Assembly (NCBI GenBank): GCA_018399635.1
Contig: JAGYOH010000005.1
Span: 1 to 64,000, forward strand
Origin: Clostridia bacterium
GTDB taxonomy: Bacteria > Bacillota > Clostridia > Peptostreptococcales > Acidaminobacteraceae
DNA: 64,000 nucleotides
Direction of reading: 5' to 3'
Below are positions 34,968 through 61,608 of this stretch, piece after piece (positions within the stretch are counted from its first letter, which is position 1; every line of letters starts with the position of its first letter). Both the position numbers and the translations under genes were made by a program. The notes under the pieces are model-generated. The model searched no databases. It was not told the DNA's origin and was given only the letters and a program-made list of their open reading frames with translations.

Positions 34968-34977
34968 TTTCCTGACC

Positions 34978-35071
34978 GGGAATGAAGTACTCCCCTAGCC
35001 GAGGCTAAAACCGCTCACCAAAGAGCTGATGACTTCTGTGAGGACATTCGCAGACCCGTTGGCTCTATTTT
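34978..35071 (+). promoter_or_regulatory. Fluoride riboswitch (crcB motif) with overlapping terminator
   Basis: The aptamer starts with hairpin GGGA/TCCC (34978-34994) whose loop holds GAAGT (34984-34988). A variable hairpin (TAGC, CGAG, GCTA, 34996-35007) follows. Then comes AAAACCGCTC, a loop, and GAGCTGATGACTTCTG, which is the conserved core of the crcB class. GCTC (35013-35016) pairs with GAGC (35023-35026), and ACTTC (35032-35036) pairs with the GAAGT loop as the pseudoknot that builds the fluoride site. AGAGC (35022-35026) can instead pair with GCTCT (35062-35066) around TCTGTG/CGCAGA, ahead of ATTTT. This alternative would be a terminator that fluoride binding prevents. Confidence 0.88.
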
Positions 35072-35091
35072 AATTATAAAGGATGATTTGC

Positions 35092-36288
35092 ATGCTCCTG
35101 AGTCTGGCCCTGATCCTGATGACCGGCTTTTCCCTCAGTGGAATTTTCAACCGCTTGAGAATCCCGGGTCTTCTGGGAATGATTCTCACCGGCATGGTCC
35201 TGGGTCCCTATGCCCTGGATCTGATTTCAACGGATATTCTGAATATTTCCATCGAACTGCGACAGATCTCCCTCATTGTCATCCTGACCCGGGCCGGTCT
35301 CTCCATCGATCTGGAGGATCTTCGCCGGGTGGGACGTCCCGCAGTCCTCATGAGTTTCGTCCCGGCGACTTTGGAGATTCTGGCCATCACCCTCATCGCC
35401 CCCCTCTTCTTTCCCGTGACCCGGATTGAAGCCGCCCTCATGGGCACCGTCGTCGCCGCCGTCTCTCCGGCGGTGGTGGTCCCCCGGATGCTGCATCTCA
35501 TGGACACCGGCTACGGCAGGGCCAGGCGGATCCCCCACCTGATCATGGCCAGTGCTTCACTGGATGACATCTACGTGATCATCCTCTTCGCCGCCTTCAT
35601 GGAAATGGCCCTGGGCCATGGCTTCTCCCCGGCCAGTCTCCTTCAGGTGCCCCTGGCCATCATTCTGGGCCTGATCCTGGGAATTCTGGCCGGACTGGTC
35701 CTGGTCCAGCTCTTCAAAAGGCTCCATATGCGGGACACCATCAAGGTCTTCATCACCCTGAGCTTCGCCTTCATCCTGGTGACCCTCGAGGGCACCCTCA
35801 AACCCTATGTCCCGGTTTCCGGCCTTCTGGCGGTCATGACCCTGGGCGCCACGATCCTGCGCTTCTACCGCAATCTGGCCATGCGTCTCCTCGGCAAGTT
35901 TTCTAAAGTCTGGGTGGGGGCGGAAATCATGCTCTTCGTCCTGGTGGGCGCCGCCGTCAATATCACCTATCTGAAGGGAAGCAGTTTGAGCGCCCTGGCC
36001 CTGATCCTTCTCGCCCTGGCCTTCAGAATCCTCGGCGTCTATCTCAGTCTTGTGAAAACCCCCTTGAAGGGCAGGGAGCGGCTCTTCTGTGCCCTGGCCT
36101 ATCTCCCCAAGGCCACGGTGCAGGCCGCCATCGGGGGAATCCCCCTGGCCGCCGGTATTCCGGGGGGTGAAATCATTCTCACTGTAGCGGTTCTTTCCAT
36201 TCTGGTCACCGCTCCCATAGGGGCCTTCGGCATTGACCGGGGACATGAAAAACTGCTGGTCCAGGAGAAAATCCCTCTCCCTGAATGA
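35092..36288 (+). CDS. Cation/proton antiporter of the CPA superfamily under fluoride riboswitch control
   Basis: The 398-residue protein has about 11-13 hydrophobic helices and the pattern of CPA-type Na+/H+ or K+/H+ exchangers: SGIFNRLRIPGLLGMILTG at the first helices, LIVILTRAGLSIDLEDLRR, and MASASLDDIYVIILF with the paired aspartates expected in the ion path. No CrcB or CLC-F signature is present. The start is taken as the ATG at 35092, 9 nt after AAAGGA; the ATG at 35083 is too close to that SD. Fluoride riboswitches are known to control some Na+/H+ antiporter genes as well as the channel genes crcB and eriC. The protein is therefore likely to help survive fluoride, directly or by correcting pH or ion balance. 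Confidence 0.9.
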   Translation: MLLSLALILMTGFSLSGIFNRLRIPGLLGMILTGMVLGPYALDLISTDILNISIELRQISLIVILTRAGLSIDLEDLRRVGRPAVLMSFVPATLEILAITLIAPLFFPVTRIEAALMGTVVAAVSPAVVVPRMLHLMDTGYGRARRIPHLIMASASLDDIYVIILFAAFMEMALGHGFSPASLLQVPLAIILGLILGILAGLVLVQLFKRLHMRDTIKVFITLSFAFILVTLEGTLKPYVPVSGLLAVMTLGATILRFYRNLAMRLLGKFSKVWVGAEIMLFVLVGAAVNITYLKGSSLSALALILLALAFRILGVYLSLVKTPLKGRERLFCALAYLPKATVQAAIGGIPLAAGIPGGEIILTVAVLSILVTAPIGAFGIDRGHEKLLVQEKIPLPE

Positions 36289-45963: not shown

Positions 45964-46660
45964 CCCCGGCCTCCTTTTTGAGTTTTTCAATTTCTTCCGG
46001 GCTCAGCAGCCGGTGCTCCCCGGGGGCCAGACCCTCCAGGGAGATTTCCCCCATGGCGGTCCGCTCAAGGGATATCACCTCAAACCCCAGGACGGCCATC
46101 ATCCTGCGGAGCTGCCGGTTCCGGCCTTCATACAAAATGACCTCATAGGTCTCTTCAGCGATTTCAGTGATTTCACAGGGCCTGGTCCGGTAGTCATCGA
46201 GGGCAAGTCCCTGGGCGAAACGGTTCAAATCCTCACGATTCAGCCTTCCTGAAACCCTGACCCGGTAGGTTTTGGGGATATGGTGCCTGGGATGGGTCAG
46301 TCGGTAGGTCAGATCCCCGTCATTGGTGAGGAGGATCAGGCCGCTGGAATGGTAATCAAGCCGGCCGACGGGATAGAGCCTCACCTCAAGGGTGGGCAGC
46401 AGGTCCAGGACCGTGGTCCTGCCGAACTGGTCCATGGCGGTGGATACCACCTCCACGGGCTTGTTGAGAAGGACCACCATGGGGGCTTCTTCGAGGCGAA
46501 GGCGCCGGTTCCGGTAGGTCACCTCATCCGAGGCCGCCACCTGATAGCCCATTTCCGTGATGACCTGGCGGTTGACCTGGATCTCCCCCTGTCGGATCAG
46601 ATCCTCGGCCCGCCGTCGGGAGGCCACCCCCGCATGGGCGAGAAATTTCTGCAGTCTCAT
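45956..46660 (-). CDS. rluB: Ribosomal large subunit pseudouridine synthase (RluB/RsuA family)
   Basis: The 234-residue protein has an N-terminal S4 RNA-binding domain (RLQKFLAHAGVASRRRAEDLIRQG) and a RsuA/RluB catalytic domain with the key Asp in GRLDYHSSGLILLTNDG (about residue 102). KTYRVRVSG and EGRNRQLRRMM follow, as in the family. It converts a uridine of 23S rRNA to pseudouridine; the choice of RluB over RsuA rests on the scpA-scpB-rluB order that is usual in Bacillota. It starts 3 nt after scpB. Confidence 0.95.
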   Translation of the reverse strand: MRLQKFLAHAGVASRRRAEDLIRQGEIQVNRQVITEMGYQVAASDEVTYRNRRLRLEEAPMVVLLNKPVEVVSTAMDQFGRTTVLDLLPTLEVRLYPVGRLDYHSSGLILLTNDGDLTYRLTHPRHHIPKTYRVRVSGRLNREDLNRFAQGLALDDYRTRPCEITEIAEETYEVILYEGRNRQLRRMMAVLGFEVISLERTAMGEISLEGLAPGEHRLLSPEEIEKLKKEAGDD

Positions 46661-46663
46661 CGG

Positions 46664-47188
46664 TCAGGCCTCGATTTCATCGTAAAGAATCTGGGGCAGG
46701 TCCTTCAAGGATTTCAGATTGAAGTTTCTCAGGAAAATGTCCGTGGTCCCATAGGTCTTGGGTCTCCCGACTTTTTCCAGTCGGCCCTTTTCCTCCACCA
46801 GGAGCCGGTCCATCAGCTGATAGATCAACCGATCCGAGTTGATGCCCCGGATGTATTCAATTTCGCTTTTGGTGATGGGCTGCTTGTAGGCGATGATGGA
46901 GAGGACCTCCAGGGCGGATTCGGACAAGCCCCTGCTCTTCGAGGCATTGAGGAGTTTTTTGACGTAGTCGACATACTTGGGATTGGTGCCGATCTGCACC
47001 TTGTCCTTGAAGTCGTAGATCATCACCCCGCTCTCCTCCCTGGTATAGAAATCCTTGAGCTCCGCGACCAGGTTCTTGGCATCACTGAGGGTGATGTCCA
47101 TGATCTGGGCGATCTTCTTGTAGCTGAGGGGCTCCGACGAGGAGAACAACAGGGCTTCAAGTATTTTCGTGTACTGGGTCACCTTCAC
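46664..47188 (-). CDS. scpB: Segregation and condensation protein B
   Basis: ScpB is a winged-helix partner of ScpA and SMC in the bacterial condensin that organises and segregates chromosomes. The 174-residue protein shows ILEALLFSSSEPLSYKKIAQIM, LEVLSIIAYKQPITKSEIEYIRG and GRPKTYGTTDIFLRNF, all typical. It begins 1 nt after the scpA stop, with a purine-rich SD inside scpA. Confidence 0.98.
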   Translation of the reverse strand: MKVTQYTKILEALLFSSSEPLSYKKIAQIMDITLSDAKNLVAELKDFYTREESGVMIYDFKDKVQIGTNPKYVDYVKKLLNASKSRGLSESALEVLSIIAYKQPITKSEIEYIRGINSDRLIYQLMDRLLVEEKGRLEKVGRPKTYGTTDIFLRNFNLKSLKDLPQILYDEIEA

Positions 47189-47189
47189 G

Positions 47190-47930
47190 CTATCCCTCCT
47201 TGATTAAATGGATCTCGGCAAAAGGCCTGTCCTGGACCACCCTGATGCCGTCGGTCCTCACCACCTCCAGAACCGCCAGAAACACCGTGATGAATTCCTC
47301 CAGAATCAGGGTCCCCTCAAAGAGACTTTGAAAGACCACCCGGTGGTGTTCCTTGAAGAGGTCCCGGATCATTCTCACCTTGTTCTCCGTGGTGAAACGC
47401 TCCCGTCGGATGTTCTTGAAGAAATCCAGCTTGTCGGCGTCAAACCGCTTCAGATTCTGGATGATGCGGTTGAAGGCCCTGGTCAGGACGTCGATGTCAT
47501 AGGACATGGTTTCGTAGTCCTTTCTGAAGAGGGCCGGATCCAGAAAGACCTGTCCCCGGTCGGTGAAAACCAGGTCCTCCGAGATCTGCCTTCTGGCCAC
47601 CTCCTGGGAAACGGCCTTGAATCTCTTGTATTCCACGAGCTTCGTGATCAGTTCATATCGGGGATCCTCGGAGTCCTCGAAGGCGATGGCCTCATACTGG
47701 TGGTCCGGCAGCAGCATCTTGGACTTGATTTCAAGCAGTATGGACGCCATGACCAGGAACTCGCCGGCCAGGTTCATGTCGAAGAGCTGCATGGCATTGA
47801 TGGTGGCGATGTAATCCCGGGTGATCTGGTGGATCTGGATATTGTAAATATCCATTTCCTCGCCTTCGATCAACTTGAGGAGAAGATCGAAGGGTCCCTC
47901 GAATTCAGCAATCTTGATGGTCATGGCCAT
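47190..47930 (-). CDS. scpA: Segregation and condensation protein A
   Basis: ScpA is the kleisin that bridges SMC heads. The 246-residue protein starts with IAEFEGPFDLLLKLIEGEEMDIYNI and continues with ATINAMQLFDMNLAGEFLVMASILLEIKSKMLLP, both hallmarks. The C-terminal winged helix includes VVFQSLFEGTLILEEFITVFLAVLEV. The ATG at 47930 has GGGGGAG 7 nt upstream; a second ATG two codons later is possible. It is the first gene of the unit scpA-scpB-rluB-small gene-methyltransferase. Confidence 0.98.
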   Translation of the reverse strand: MAMTIKIAEFEGPFDLLLKLIEGEEMDIYNIQIHQITRDYIATINAMQLFDMNLAGEFLVMASILLEIKSKMLLPDHQYEAIAFEDSEDPRYELITKLVEYKRFKAVSQEVARRQISEDLVFTDRGQVFLDPALFRKDYETMSYDIDVLTRAFNRIIQNLKRFDADKLDFFKNIRRERFTTENKVRMIRDLFKEHHRVVFQSLFEGTLILEEFITVFLAVLEVVRTDGIRVVQDRPFAEIHLIKEG

Positions 47931-47967
47931 GGTCCTTCTCCCCCTTTTTTTCCTCTACCAGTTTACA

Positions 47968-48759
47968 CTAATTTCCCCGATCTTTGAAGTATTCCTTTGC
48001 CTCGGGGTTGGCCTGCACCAGGGCCAGGATCATTCCCCTCCTGGATTCCGCCCCACTGAGGGAGGGCATTTTCCGCAAGCCGATGCCCTCGAAAATCCCC
48101 CGGTCGAGGACTTCCTGCAACAACTGCAGGTTTTTTTCTTCAAGGACCTTGTTCAAATATTTGATCAGCAGACCGGAACCGAGTTTTTCATAGGTAGCCT
48201 CCATGGCCCCTTTCAGGGTCCGGGCTTCGATCTCGAGGCCGTAGCGGTAACGGTAGATGTAAAGGCGAATCACCCGGCTGGGATCCTCATCGAAGGCCTC
48301 CGCCCTGATGCTTCTGAGAACCCCCTGCTTGAGATCCGCTATTCCCCCCAGGGGATCGATCCATCGGGGACTCGCTCCCCTGCGGATTTCGAGATAGATG
48401 GCATTGATGGTGAAATCCCGTCGCAGGACGTCCTCCTCGAAGGTCCCCTCGGCGATGAGGGGATAGGGCGAATCCTCCTGGTAGGTCTCCTTCCTCAAGG
48501 GGACCAGGTCCAGATGGCGGCCTTCAAGCTCGAAGGCGATATTGTAAAAATCCTCGATGAATCTGAGCCCCTTGACGGATTTGGTTTTCAAGTCTTCGTA
48601 GAGGGCCCTCATCTGAGCGAAAGAAAGCGGCAGAACCACGTCGACATCCCGGGTGAAGCGCCCGAGGAGATGATCTCTCGTGAGTCCGCCTACATAATAG
48701 AAGCGGGTGACATGGGGTTCAAGCAGCGCCAGAAGGGCTGCGTCCATTCGATCCTTCAT
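47968..48759 (-). CDS. Short CCA-adding enzyme/poly(A) polymerase-like nucleotidyltransferase (head and neck only)
   Basis: The 263-residue protein carries the class II nucleotidyltransferase core: YYVGGLTRDHLLGRFTRDVDVVLPL with the two metal-binding aspartates, then LRRDFTINAIYLEI and IDPLGGIADL, and AFDEDPSRVIRLYIYRYRYGLEI for the neck. Family enzymes are usually 400 residues or more, with body and tail or HD domains; here only about 70 residues follow the neck. It could be a reduced CCA-adding enzyme, an A-adding enzyme or a decayed copy. The ATG at 48759 follows AAGGA; the longer frame to 48774 lacks an SD. It is preceded by a strong terminator. Confidence 0.85.
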   Translation of the reverse strand: MKDRMDAALLALLEPHVTRFYYVGGLTRDHLLGRFTRDVDVVLPLSFAQMRALYEDLKTKSVKGLRFIEDFYNIAFELEGRHLDLVPLRKETYQEDSPYPLIAEGTFEEDVLRRDFTINAIYLEIRRGASPRWIDPLGGIADLKQGVLRSIRAEAFDEDPSRVIRLYIYRYRYGLEIEARTLKGAMEATYEKLGSGLLIKYLNKVLEEKNLQLLQEVLDRGIFEGIGLRKMPSLSGAESRRGMILALVQANPEAKEYFKDRGN

Positions 48760-48770
48760 GCTTGTCCTTT

Positions 48771-48800
48771 CCAAAAAGAGATGGGGTATAGTACCCCATC
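48771..48800 (-). terminator. Terminator of the long nusB-to-ferritin gene run
   Basis: GATGGGGTA (48780-48788) and TACCCCATC (48792-48800) with a 3-nt loop; the minus strand continues TCTTTTT. Confidence 0.9.
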
Positions 48801-48813
48801 CGTGACCCCTTCT

Positions 48814-49305
48814 CTAGAAGGGTGCATAGCTTTGTGCGGCCCACCATTCGTCCTGCAGCTGCTGGTACTCCTCGGTGAACTGGTGCATGTGGACCTCTTC
48901 CCATTTGATCAGAATATCGTAGAGCTCCCTGGCCTTTGGTATCCGGGTGGTTTTTTTGGCTTCGGTGTAGAATTCAACCGAAGCCTTCTCCATTTGTATG
49001 CCGATGCTGAAGACCGACATGGCCATGCTCAGGTCCGCCTTGTCCAGGGAGGCCACCTTGAAAATCTGGCCGGAGGCCGGAGGAACCAGGGTCGCCAGCT
49101 GGTAATCATCCCCCTTGTCATCCTTGACCTTGTTGAACAAGTCCTGGAGATACTCGATATGGATCATTTCTTCCTTGGCCAGATTGCTCAGAGTTTCCCT
49201 GGCCTCTTTTGAAACGGCCTTTTCAGCCGCGAGCTGATAGAATTCGTAGCCCTCGACTTCATTGATGATGGCTTGTTTGATCAGTTTGATTTCCTGTTCC
49301 TTCAC
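48814..49305 (-). CDS. Ferritin-like (rubrerythrin-fold) protein
   Basis: The 163-residue protein is a four-helix di-iron ferritin-like domain. It has IINEVEGYEFYQLAAEKA, then LAKEEMIHIEYLQDL (ExxH) in the first half, and IQMEKASVEFYTEAKK, then LIKWEEVHMHQFTEEY (ExxH) in the second. No rubredoxin domain is attached. These proteins often protect anaerobes from peroxide. The start is a GTG at 49305 behind AAAGGAGG. It is the last gene of the long run before a terminator and has no obvious link to the nucleoside genes upstream. It differs clearly from the ferritin-like gene at 23740. Confidence 0.9.
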   Translation of the reverse strand: MKEQEIKLIKQAIINEVEGYEFYQLAAEKAVSKEARETLSNLAKEEMIHIEYLQDLFNKVKDDKGDDYQLATLVPPASGQIFKVASLDKADLSMAMSVFSIGIQMEKASVEFYTEAKKTTRIPKARELYDILIKWEEVHMHQFTEEYQQLQDEWWAAQSYAPF

Positions 49306-57277: not shown

Positions 57278-59113
57278 CTAAGGGCGTCTCTCCCGGGCAA
57301 TCCGCTTCAGGATCCCCTCCGGGTCCAGCCCGTGCCGCTTGAGCAGGGAATCGGTTTCTCCGTGGGGGATGAAGGCCTGGGGCAGGTTGATGGGGGTGAC
57401 CCTGTGGTGACCCTGTCTCAGAAAGAGGGTTTCCAGGCTCTGGTTGACCCCCCCCTGGTAGGGCGCCTCCTCCAGGAGGACGATGTGGTCATAGGCCTCG
57501 GCCCGGCTCAGAATCGCCGCCAGGTCGAGGGGCTTGATCTGTCTGAGGTTGAGAATGCCTAAGGATTCCTCCGTGAGGGCCTGGACCTCCAGAGCGGTCT
57601 TGACCATTCTCGAATAAGCGATGATCAGGGTCTCATCGCCGCTTTTGACCAGTTCGGGTTCACTCAGGGGGGTCTGGTCTTCATTCAGGGTGTAGGCCCT
57701 GCCCCGGGGATATTTGATGGCCACGGGTCCCTCCATGGCATAACTCTCCTTCAGGACCCTTCTGAGTTCGGCCGCATCCTTGGGGGCGAAAACCGTGAAA
57801 TTGGGGATGAGATTCAAATAGCCCGTATCGAAAATGCCGTGGTGGGTCTCCCCGTCCTCGCCGACGATTCCGGAGCGGTCGATGCACAGGACCACATGAA
57901 GGTTTTGAAGAGCGACATCGTGGATCAACTGGTCGAAGGCCCGCTGCAAAAAGGTGGAATAGATGGCGACATAGGGCTTGAGGCCCTCGGTGGCCATGCC
58001 GGCGGCGAGGGTGACGGCGTTCTGCTCGGCGATGCCGACATCCACGAACCGGTCCTTGAAGGACTCGGCGAAGGACTTGAGTCCGGTGCCGGCGCACATG
58101 GCGGCGGTAATGGCGAAAATATCCTCATGGTCCCGGGCCATTTCGGTCAGGGTCCCGCCGAAGACCGCTGAAAAGTCCACGGTCTCCCTGGGCTTCACCC
58201 CGTACTTGATGTCGAAGGGCCCCACCCCGTGGTAGAGATTGGGATTGAGCCGGGCATAGGGATAGCCCTTGCCTTTGATGGTCCTGACGTGGAGCAGGAC
58301 CGGCTTGTCCATCTTCTTGGCGATTTCCAGGGCGCTGACCAGGTCCTTGATGTCATGGCCGTCCACGGGACCGATATAGGAAAGGCCGAAATGCTCGAAG
58401 AACATGCCGGGTATCATCAGTTCCTTCAGGCCGCTCTTGGCCCTGGACAGGGTGCGGTAGGCCACTCCGCCGAGTCTGGACTTGCCCAAGGATGCCACAG
58501 TGGCGTGCTTGAGCCGGTTGTAGCTCTTGAAACTCCTCACCCGGCTCAGGGTATTGGAAACACTTCCTACATTGGGGGAAATGGACATTTCATTGTCATT
58601 GAGGACGATGATCAGAGGACTTTTGGCTTCGCCGGCGAAATTCAGGGCTTCAAAGGCCATCCCCGCCGTCAGGGCGCCGTCTCCGATCACCGGAACCACG
58701 TAGTGCCTGCCGTTTTTATAGTGGTCGCCGTAGGCGATGCCCAGGGCGGCGGATATGGAGGTGGAGGAATGTCCGGCCTCGAAAATGTCATGAGGGCTCT
58801 CTGAGCGCTTCAAGAATCCGCTGAGGCCGTCGATCTGCCTGAGGGTCTTGAAGCGGTCCCTGCGACCGGTGAGGATCTTGTGGCCGTAGGCCTGGTGGCC
58901 CACATCCCAGATGATTTTGTCCTCGGGGGACTTGAAAACGTAATGCAGGGCCACGGTGAGCTCCACGGTCCCGAGGTTGGGCGCCAGATGGCCCCCGGTC
59001 CTGGAAACTTCCTGAAGAATGAATTCCCTCAGCTCCGAGGCGATCAAGGGCAGCTCCGAGACCTGGAATCTTCTCAAATCCCCCGGTTCATTGATGCGGT
59101 CCAAATATCCCAT
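57278..59113 (-). CDS. dxs: 1-deoxy-D-xylulose-5-phosphate synthase
   Basis: Dxs makes DXP from pyruvate and glyceraldehyde 3-phosphate, the first step of the MEP isoprenoid pathway and a source for thiamine and pyridoxal. The 611-residue protein has DVGHQAYGHKILTGR, the TPP motif GDGALTAGMAFEALNFAG followed by LNDNEMSIS, and in the pyrimidine domain GIAEQNAVTLAAGMA with the catalytic Glu, then CIDRSGIVGEDGETHHG. It lies 12 nt after oapA. ispA (60721) and ispH (37675) in this window belong to the same pathway. Confidence 0.98.
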   Translation of the reverse strand: MGYLDRINEPGDLRRFQVSELPLIASELREFILQEVSRTGGHLAPNLGTVELTVALHYVFKSPEDKIIWDVGHQAYGHKILTGRRDRFKTLRQIDGLSGFLKRSESPHDIFEAGHSSTSISAALGIAYGDHYKNGRHYVVPVIGDGALTAGMAFEALNFAGEAKSPLIIVLNDNEMSISPNVGSVSNTLSRVRSFKSYNRLKHATVASLGKSRLGGVAYRTLSRAKSGLKELMIPGMFFEHFGLSYIGPVDGHDIKDLVSALEIAKKMDKPVLLHVRTIKGKGYPYARLNPNLYHGVGPFDIKYGVKPRETVDFSAVFGGTLTEMARDHEDIFAITAAMCAGTGLKSFAESFKDRFVDVGIAEQNAVTLAAGMATEGLKPYVAIYSTFLQRAFDQLIHDVALQNLHVVLCIDRSGIVGEDGETHHGIFDTGYLNLIPNFTVFAPKDAAELRRVLKESYAMEGPVAIKYPRGRAYTLNEDQTPLSEPELVKSGDETLIIAYSRMVKTALEVQALTEESLGILNLRQIKPLDLAAILSRAEAYDHIVLLEEAPYQGGVNQSLETLFLRQGHHRVTPINLPQAFIPHGETDSLLKRHGLDPEGILKRIARERRP

Positions 59114-59125
59114 TCATAAGTCTCC

Positions 59126-59701
59126 TTAATTGTCATTTTTCATCATTGGCAGCCAGTTCTCCACGGTCCACAGGACCAGGGCGAAATAGTAGACGATGGT
59201 TTTCCAGTGGGTGAGAGCGATCTTTTTGCCCAGAGCCTTGCCCCCGATGGTGAGGGCCGCCGTCAGACCGCTGAGGAGGACCGCCACCAGGGACATGTTG
59301 TAGAGGGAATAATCCCAGAGCACCATCTTGATGGCAATGGCCGCAATGGCCGCCCCGCTGATGATGCCGGCGATGTCCCCGATCACGTCGTTGCAGAAAT
59401 TGGAAACCCTGTCGGCATTGAGACTCAGCTCCACCGCCTTCCTGGCCCCCTTGACCTTCTTGGCGGCCATGGCGTTGAAGGGTCTCGGGTTGGATGCCGC
59501 CACGGCGATGCCGATGCCGTCGAAGAAGACCCCGAGGAAGACGATGAAAAGCAACACCACGAAGGCGCCGTAAATGTTGAGATTTTTGATGGAAATCTCA
59601 GAGAGAATCCCCACGCCGATGGCGAGGAAGAAACTGATCATGGAAATCCTGAGAACCCATTTTTTCTTGGCTTTTTTGTTGGTGCCCCTGTTTTTTTTCA
59701 T
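59126..59701 (-). CDS. oapA: OapA: OLE RNA-associated membrane protein (DUF21-like)
   Basis: The 191-residue protein has a basic N-terminus (KKNRGTNKKAKKK) and four hydrophobic segments: MISFFLAIGVGILSEI, GAFVVLLFIVFLGVFFDGIGIAVAA, IAGIISGAAIAAIAIKM, and MSLVAVLLSGLTAALTIGG. The segment FFDGIGIAVAASNPRPFNAMAAKKVKGARKA resembles the DUF21 membrane domain of CNNM-type transporters, without CBS domains. Size, topology and position between a DUF212 gene/OLE RNA and dxs match OapA of Bacillus halodurans, which recruits OLE RNA to the membrane. GGAGAG lies 5 nt before the ATG at 59701. The name rests on context and topology; I cannot run an alignment. Confidence 0.85.
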   Translation of the reverse strand: MKKNRGTNKKAKKKWVLRISMISFFLAIGVGILSEISIKNLNIYGAFVVLLFIVFLGVFFDGIGIAVAASNPRPFNAMAAKKVKGARKAVELSLNADRVSNFCNDVIGDIAGIISGAAIAAIAIKMVLWDYSLYNMSLVAVLLSGLTAALTIGGKALGKKIALTHWKTIVYYFALVLWTVENWLPMMKNDN

Positions 59702-59732
59702 ACACTCTCCAATGTTGTTAAAATCATATCAA

Positions 59733-60265
59733 GTGGTGGCGATAAAGTGAGTAAACTCTGTGCCTTAGGTCCAGTAGGATTTCCCAACCGCGAACTGATT
59801 CGTCGCCGAATCAGCAGTTTCCTATTATCCGCGGCTTCGCCCTGTCACCAGCGACGAGACTGAACTACCACTCAGTGCACACTTCAATCCCCACTCTACC
59901 TCTATCAAATAGAACAGTCTAGGAGATTTCCTCAGCAACGTCAAGACATCCTTAGCCTCTTTTGCAGTGTTGGTTTAGATTAGCAAGGTGCGTACCGTCC
60001 ACCAAACGCCACTCAAGGCAGGCTACACTGCAGGCAGTATCACTACCTACAGGTTTAATCCTGTTTGAAAAATCAAGCAGGTCTCCACGGAATAAGGGTC
60101 GTTGACCGCATGCCATTGCGGTTCGCCCCTAGTTCCTTACTCCCAGCCAGGACCCATTACTGGGCGTAACAAGCCCGCAACCAGGAACTTCATCGATGTG
60201 CCCTTCGACGGATTTTTAGCCCCGCCTTCAGAATGCTCTTGTTGACTAGAATACTGCGCCACCAC
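59733..60265 (-). ncRNA. ole: OLE RNA (ornate, large, extremophilic RNA)
   Basis: This 533-nt stretch on the minus strand has no coding potential yet is rich in structure. Its ends pair: GTGGTGGCG (60265-60257) with CGCCACCAC (59741-59733). Inside are CTGATTCG, GCGA, CGAATCAG (59795-59814), an 8-bp hairpin with a GNRA loop; AGGAACT/AGTTCCT (60183-60189 with 60131-60137); GGGC/GCCC (60162-60176); and CCCA/TGGG (60153-60164) as an alternative. OLE RNA is about 600 nt, occurs in anaerobic or extremophilic Bacillota, and lies in just this neighbourhood (xseA-xseB-ispA ... OLE-oapA-dxs-tlyA-argR-recN). It forms a membrane ribonucleoprotein linked to magnesium, alcohol and energy stress in B. halodurans. 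A consensus-model search would settle it. Confidence 0.88.
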
Positions 60266-60271
60266 TTAATA

Positions 60272-60718
60272 TCATTTTAACATAATATTGGCCATCAGGA
60301 TGCCCAGAAGGGCTCCCACAAAAACTTCATAGGGGGTATGCCCCACCAGTTCCTTCATTTTCTGCTGGCCGATATGCCGGTGCTTGTAGAGATCCTCGAT
60401 CATGGTATTGAGGATGATCGCCTGTTTACCCACGGCTCTCCTGACCCCTGAGGCATCGTACATCACCACCAGGGAAAAGACCAGTGAGATGGCGAAGAGG
60501 GCGCTGTCAAAGCCGAAATCCAGGCCGACGGCGGTGGTCACCGCCATCACGATGGCGGAATGGGAACTGGGCATCCCCCCGGAACCCACCATCCGGTACA
60601 GGTTGAGCCGCTTGTCGATGATCAGGGTCAGGACCACCTTGAGGACCTGGGCGATGAACCAGGATAAAAAGGCCACTGAAAAATAGGGGTTGGAAAAAAT
60701 ATCTCGCATCACCATCAT
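60272..60718 (-). CDS. Divergent PAP2 family (DUF212) membrane protein
   Basis: The 148-residue protein has about four membrane spans and the DUF212 features: FLSWFIAQVLKV at the start, GSGGMPSSHSAIVMAVTTAVG with the PAP2-like SHS motif, VMYDASGVRRAVGKQA, and GHTPYEVFVGALLGI with the second His. The family is related to acid phosphatases, but the substrate is unknown; an isoprenoid or lipid phosphate is a natural guess beside ispA. It starts at ATG 60718, right after the ispA stop, and ends 7 nt before OLE RNA, so OLE is probably transcribed through from this gene. Confidence 0.93.
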   Translation of the reverse strand: MMVMRDIFSNPYFSVAFLSWFIAQVLKVVLTLIIDKRLNLYRMVGSGGMPSSHSAIVMAVTTAVGLDFGFDSALFAISLVFSLVVMYDASGVRRAVGKQAIILNTMIEDLYKHRHIGQQKMKELVGHTPYEVFVGALLGILMANIMLK

Positions 60719-60720
60719 AT

Positions 60721-61608
60721 CTACTTCTCTCTTTTTCTGAGTTCTTGTATCAATTCTATCATAAATGACCAGTCATATTCATCCATATTCCTTAAGATCG
60801 TCGTCGCTTCCTCTAAAAACCCGTCGATGTCCCCCCTGGTTTTTTCTAATCCGTAGTGGGAGGGATAGGTGTTTTTGCCCAGAACCTCATCCCGGTTCGA
60901 GGCCTTTCCCGTCACCGCCTGGTCTCCCGTGAGGTCCAGCAGGTCGTCCCGCAGCTGGAAGCTGTAACCCATCAGAAAGGCCACCCTTTCAAGGTCCTTG
61001 AGCTTTTCCAAGTCCAGGCCTGACAGGATGCCGGCCCCCAGGACCGGAGCCATGATCAGACGGGCGGTCTTGTTGGTGATGAGGTAGTCCAGCATCTCCT
61101 CTTCAAGGGGGCTGCCCTGGGAGAGGATGTCCACCACCTGCCCCCCGATCATGCCCTTTTCCCCGGCGGCATGGGCGATGGTCGCCACGCAAAGGGCGGT
61201 GTCGGAGGGATTCCTGGCGGTGAGGATGGCCTCCACCATGATTTCATAGGCCTTGTTCAGCAGTCCGTCCCCGGAGAGAATCGCCAGGGCTTCGGAATAC
61301 TGCCTGTGGGCGGTGGGCCGTCCCCGACGGAGCTCATCGTCATCCATGGCCGGCAGATCATCATGAATGAGGGAATAGGTGTGGATCATTTCGATCGCCA
61401 GGGCGATTTTCAGGGCGCTGTCCATGGGCCCCCCCAGAATCTCGGTGGTCTTGACCATGAGCACAGGCCTCAACCGCTTGCCCCCGGACAGGAGGGAATA
61501 GTTCATCACCTCGTTGAAAAGTTTCTCATAGGCGTTGTCGGACTCGGTGAAGACCCTCTTGAGGCCTTCTTCGACCAGGGCCCTGGCTTCTAGATAGGCC
61601 TTATTCAT
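60721..61608 (-). CDS. ispA: Polyprenyl synthetase, geranyl/farnesyl diphosphate synthase type
   Basis: The 295-residue protein condenses DMAPP and IPP to C10-C20 prenyl diphosphates. It has YSLLSGGKRLRPVL, the first aspartate-rich motif in HDDLPAMDDDELRRGRPT, GDGLLNKAYEI, the second motif FQLRDDLLDLTGD and GKNTYPS. The DDLPAMDD form is usual for bacterial short-chain (IspA) enzymes. The start is the ATG at 61608, with GAGGAAGAG upstream, 8 nt inside xseB; the longer open frame to 61722 overlaps xseB and has no SD. Confidence 0.97.
   Translation of the reverse strand: MNKAYLEARALVEEGLKRVFTESDNAYEKLFNEVMNYSLLSGGKRLRPVLMVKTTEILGGPMDSALKIALAIEMIHTYSLIHDDLPAMDDDELRRGRPTAHRQYSEALAILSGDGLLNKAYEIMVEAILTARNPSDTALCVATIAHAAGEKGMIGGQVVDILSQGSPLEEEMLDYLITNKTARLIMAPVLGAGILSGLDLEKLKDLERVAFLMGYSFQLRDDLLDLTGDQAVTGKASNRDEVLGKNTYPSHYGLEKTRGDIDGFLEEATTILRNMDEYDWSFMIELIQELRKREK

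Follow-up and report, generated by a model that had tools for sequence, protein, structure and literature searches.

An OLE RNA gene lies between a DUF212 gene and oapA

OLE RNAs are among the largest structured bacterial RNAs. We analyzed a 64,000-nt stretch of DNA (the window) from a little-studied Clostridia bacterium whose genome is 95.6% complete and whose family includes Fusibacter. Genes in this region run in the order (nusB)-tsaD paralogue-xseA-xseB-ispA-DUF212-OLE-oapA-dxs-tlyA-argR-recN, with nusB falling almost entirely outside the window edge (Table 1). We named nusB, argR, and recN from the translations of their open reading frames (ORFs), and the tsaD paralogue, xseA, xseB, ispA, DUF212, dxs, and tlyA by family matches. 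The original prediction had placed an OLE RNA between a DUF212 gene and oapA, in a neighborhood of nusB, xseA, xseB, ispA, oapA, dxs, tlyA, argR, and recN; both the position and the neighborhood proved correct, with the tsaD paralogue and DUF212 also in this order.

Between the oapA start at 59701 and the DUF212 stop at 60272 lies a noncoding gap without a convincing gene. When the window was searched against Rfam with cmscan, the OLE family (RF01071) matched the minus strand from end to end (model positions 1 to 616 of 616) with a score nine times the gathering cut-off of 50 bits (E 1.9e-130), and oapA begins about 18 nt downstream of the match. The original prediction had thus correctly described a complete OLE RNA on the minus strand, and the covariance-model search on which it was staked returned a hit of 455 bits rather than none. 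It was also right that the largest gene-free gap holds no convincing gene, but not about a length of 533 nt; since RF01071 matches 59720-60278 end to end, the RNA is 559 nt by the model. We found no second OLE copy in the 2.36-Mb window genome, and scans for promoters and terminators gave nothing above chance worth using.

There is next to no chance that the gap merely resembles OLE and is in fact an unusually long untranslated region or conceals a coding gene. Although a 54-codon ORF does lie inside it (59952-60116), this ORF spans just a fraction of the element, and both the E value of 2e-130 to the OLE family and the strong covariation described below contradict such a reading. We conclude with high confidence that the gap is a genuine, full-length OLE RNA gene, a new representative of an already known family. 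OLE RNA and its short variants have already been published (PMC11332333).

Elsewhere in the window, a fluoride riboswitch (34969-35045; RF01734, 42.4 bits) lies directly upstream of a plus-strand gene of the Na+/H+ exchanger family (35083-36288; PF00999), which is a known kind of association. Two plus-strand ORFs, 46280-47203 (307 aa) and 47875-49212 (445 aa), had no Pfam match.

Table 1. Genes and RNA features at the OLE locus (window coordinates)
Feature	Coordinates	Strand	Remarks
dxs	57278..59113	-	TIGR00204, 728.2 bits
oapA, OLE-associated membrane protein	59126..59701	-	191 aa; 39% identity to the protein of the H. halodurans OLE locus
P1, 3' strand of terminal closing helix	59716..59741	-	oapA ribosome-binding site ~5 nt further downstream
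OLE RNA, full RF01071 model	59720..60278	-	cmscan, 455.4 bits; single copy in genome
P13, loop GGCGAC	59795..59814	-	part of predicted OapB site (site from PMC9723947); intact
P12.2, loop GGUGAC	59837..59857	-	part of predicted OapB site (site from PMC9723947); intact
P9, without P9.3 arm and palindromic kissing loop	59966..60011	-	46 nt; base motif GGUGGA...UAAACC kept
P9 tip remnant GGUACGCACC	59987..59996	-	at most a 3-bp mini-hairpin
P8, mildly short	60028..60053	-	
P7, shortened	60060..60081	-	~23 nt vs 48 in H. halodurans
P6.1 hairpin, loop CAAUGGCAU	60106..60121	-	predicted dimer contact, intact; GGCAU in 98/98 OLEs
L5.1 (GCCCA)	60159..60167	-	predicted contact with L6.1, intact; in 98/98 OLEs
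P4, A-rich loop CUAAAAAU	60207..60226	-	predicted contact B1, intact; loop in 97/98 OLEs
P1, 5' strand of terminal closing helix	60257..60282	-	25/26 positions pair with 59716-59741
DUF212 gene (divergent PAP2), preceding OLE	60272..60718	-	Pfam PF02681, 170.3 bits
ispA, farnesyl diphosphate synthase	60721..61605	-	NF045485, 284.3 bits

Pairing is conserved and a long helix closes the RNA

Projecting the Rfam structure onto the window OLE gave standard pairs at 39 of 40 positions in P3-P6 and at all 47 in the 3' domain (47/47). Among relatives, 93.3% of pair cells in P3-P6 (97 aligned rows) and 94.0% in the 3' domain (86 aligned rows) were standard, with double-sided changes in 26/40 and 39/47 pairs, respectively. 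As a control, sliding the partner by 2-3 columns left a paired fraction of 36-49%. The Rfam OLE stems are backed by covariation in 86-97 relatives, and the compensatory changes on which the original prediction had also been staked are present. A crude duplex test of P3 gave 11 bp in the window OLE; values of 2-3 bp for two other loci (L065 and L083) were discarded as a probable strand-cutting artefact.

Two structural details of the original prediction can be located in this fold. It described a GNRA-capped hairpin, and GNRA-type loops are present in both P12.2 and P13. Its 9-bp closing stem was correct in that the two ends do pair, but the helix, P1, is longer, with 25 pairs over 26 nt, one G-G mismatch, and one G-U. 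At -37.5 kcal/mol, P1 of the window OLE is the most stable among the 98 OLE loci compared (median, -19.0). Ends paired within species averaged -19.9 compared to -13.6 when swapped between species, and the window 5' end paired with the 3' ends of other species averaged -15.7. The 5' strand of P1 overlaps the final DUF212 codons and stop codon, and this overlap, together with the nearness of the helix to the oapA ribosome-binding site, suggests a possible role in processing or translation coupling.

The P9 kissing-loop arm is missing from the window OLE

Cryo-EM structures of OLE dimers were described just recently for Clostridium acetobutylicum and C. botulinum (PMC12286853, PMC12265935). As set out in these reports, there are four dimer contacts, of which the palindromic kissing loop L9.3 is the fourth (B3), while the P4 loop forms contact B1 (PMC12286853) and L5.1 contacts L6.1 (PMC12265935). 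Compared to these dimers, the L4-L4 and L5.1-L6.1 contact loops are conserved in the window OLE, whereas the L9.3 kissing loop on a long P9 arm is lacking, and we found no GGCC-type loop in the window P9. The window OLE owes its shortness to reductions in P7 and, most of all, in P9, in line with the claim that this copy is shorter than the published average. The accessible text of the cryo-EM commentary (PMC12265935) accounts for natural losses of P7 and P8 by noting that neither stem makes a dimer contact, and we found no discussion there of the loss of the P9 contact.

Across 100 distinct OLE-oapA loci, P9 measured 73-87 nt in 88, 65-68 nt in 2, and 29-48 nt in 10. It is 46 nt in the window and 47 nt in the sister species, both of which have lost the P9.3 arm, and since the short P9 recurs in two assemblies made independently, it does not reflect an assembly slip. 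In an OapA tree, the window and sister sequences form a fully supported pair beside the two nearest outgroup species, which retain a long P9 of 77 nt with a GGCC loop. Parsimony on this tree (100 sequences) places six changes to a short P9, at least three of them on strongly supported branches. The nearest relative of the window genome was assembled from a metagenome and bears the label 'delta proteobacterium ML8_F1' (L043, LQBE01000019.1; 76% OapA identity). It carries OLE RNA and oapA and belongs to the same genus, in the family that includes Fusibacter; judged by these sequences, its 'delta proteobacterium' label looks wrong.

Long P9 arms end in self-complementary loops, with GGCC in 80/88, AGCT in 4, GATC in 2, GCGC in 1, and probably CTAG in 1; after shuffling of the loop centre, GGCC was found in a mean of 8 and a maximum of 17. 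The L9.3 palindrome has been reported to switch among GGCC, GAUC, and AGCU (PMC12286853). The palindromes of the long P9 loops agree with this published kissing loop, and GCGC and, probably, CTAG lengthen the known list.

The short arms are more varied. Folded alone, P9 does no better than shuffled sequence in the window OLE (z, 0.52), the sister species, or L032; in two Syntrophomonadaceae-labelled genomes (L083 and L099), it clearly beats shuffled sequence and forms a plain hairpin. Palindromes occur at short-P9 tips (GUAC in the window, UGCA in the sister species, UUCGAA in L024, and none in L032), and a weak replacement contact through the GUAC of GGUACGCACC is possible, with four-base palindromes being common by chance. 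Because such short loops yield palindromes by chance, we make no claim of a replacement contact.

Two loci of the Bacillus/Evansella type (L101 and L107) carry a P9 of 65-68 nt without a GGCC loop, and their clade-mates carry GGCC; they appear to represent a further independent change of the P9 arm. Another locus (L032; G008:C62:11341-11858) has a 518-nt OLE scoring 350 bits, with a P9 of 29 nt and P12.2 deleted, and its genome (G008) still encodes OapB and OapC. The original prediction had valued the window copy for finding the minimal core of OLE, but its shortness is uneven and lies mainly in P9; the still shorter G008 OLE is the better minimal-core candidate.

Partners of the H. halodurans OLE RNP are encoded alongside the shortened RNA

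OapA of the window retains the motif NFCNDVIGDI. Its two Asp residues, spaced four positions apart, are the probable counterparts of D100 and D104 in H. halodurans OapA, the residues mutated in PM1 (PMC9723947). The window OapA also matches CNNM below threshold (23.2 bits), as has been described for OapA (PMC11332333). The search for oapB and oapC homologues proposed in the original prediction found both; a candidate OapB between map and infA matches the solved OapB 7k9b (E 9.5e-12), and a candidate OapC between rpoC and rpsL matches YbxF (E 2e-12). The letters of the P4-P5 junction are conserved in the window OLE of this YbxF-encoding genome, and bS21 is encoded as well. Among 41 family genomes, 38 encode OapB and 26 encode OapC, with or without OLE, which is present in 21. 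Three family members with a short P9 (G001, G014, and G008) encode both OapB and OapC, and a fourth (G013) encodes OapB but gave no OapC match.

The window OLE shares with the H. halodurans OLE (RF01071; OapA, OapB, OapC, and bS21; PMC9723947, PMC12054373) a full-length model match, the ole-oapA adjacency, the P4, P5.1, P6.1, P12.2, and P13 loops, and the four partner genes. On the other hand, its P9 is 46 nt compared to 85 and its P7 is 23 nt compared to 48, and it lacks the P9.3 kissing loop and has a 25-bp terminal helix.

Variant 1 OLE RNAs are described as having short P7, P8, and P9, occurring mostly in TANB77 bacteria, and often lacking the OapB site, with the TANB77 clade largely lacking OapB and OapC (PMC11332333). 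It is conceivable, though in our view rather doubtful, that the window OLE is simply this variant, including its loss of the OapB contact. P7 and P9 are indeed short as in variant 1, but, set against the published description of that variant, the window OLE has a P8 that is just mildly short, keeps P12.2 and P13 of the OapB site intact, is accompanied by OapB and OapC genes, and belongs to a different clade. A long P9 is common in the OLE family yet not defining, as P9 is short in 10 of the 100 distinct loci and in published variants (PMC11332333).

CNNM proteins co-occur with an intact OLE RNA in the window genome

The window genome (G000) carries two adjacent CNNM (MpfA-type) genes (G000:C2:63899-65474; also L124:1370-3677, on G000:C2). 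The same pair of CNNM matches is found in G001 and G003. Among family genomes at least 90% complete, CNNM was present in 7/19 that bear OLE and 12/13 that do not (Fisher p 0.003, uncorrected for kinship). OLE and CNNM tend to exclude each other in the family, in agreement with the published anticorrelation, and the window genome belongs to the minority holding both.

This pattern, along with the absence of OLE from about half of the family, could mean that the OLE gene is decaying and that the P9 arm was lost because the RNA is dispensable where MpfA-type Mg2+ exporters could substitute for it. We consider this improbable, since decay is contradicted by the model pairs that hold in the window OLE (39/40 and 47/47), the unchanged conserved loops, and the intact OapA. 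It is also contradicted by the sister species, which at 76% OapA identity has the same short yet intact form.

A model for an OLE particle without the P9 arm

To our knowledge, no OLE RNA has an established biochemical action, so the functional half of our explanation rests on one model species. Taken as a whole, the locus is very likely an OLE RNA gene for an RNP of the H. halodurans type whose P9.3 arm was deleted in this lineage, a reading that draws together the identity and locus of the RNA, its conserved pairing, its partner genes, the loss of P9.3, and the retention of the other contact loops. The RNA would be transcribed within the operon and trimmed to about 560 nt, with the long P1 helix holding its ends together. 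If it behaves like its H. halodurans homologue, OapA would hold OLE at the membrane and the RNA would fold as a dimer, with OapB bound at P12.2/P13, bS21 at P6, and OapC at the P5 kink turn; the resulting particle would serve as a scaffold or an enzyme that responds to stress and ions. With the P9.3 arm deleted, a dimer, if formed, would therefore have only L4-L4 and L5.1-L6.1 to depend on. Most likely the membrane RNP would match that of H. halodurans, except that its dimer would be supported at three contact points rather than four.

We propose that the arm, being deleted in the window lineage, is therefore not essential to OLE function. More broadly, we lean toward the view that several lineages independently removed the P9 kissing-loop arm while keeping the other dimer loops, and OapB and OapC in most genomes checked. 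The fourth contact and the role of the conserved arch would then be a separable module that is dispensable for the core OLE particle.

The locus itself is ordinary, and the natural deletion is modestly useful. It indicates that P9 reduction need not accompany the loss of OapB and OapC. As a natural OLE minus one of four dimer contacts, with all known partners encoded, the window OLE amounts to a ready-made deletion mutant that could probe the role of the P9 arch and what portion of the dimer is required, and may thereby serve as a natural test of the dimer model.
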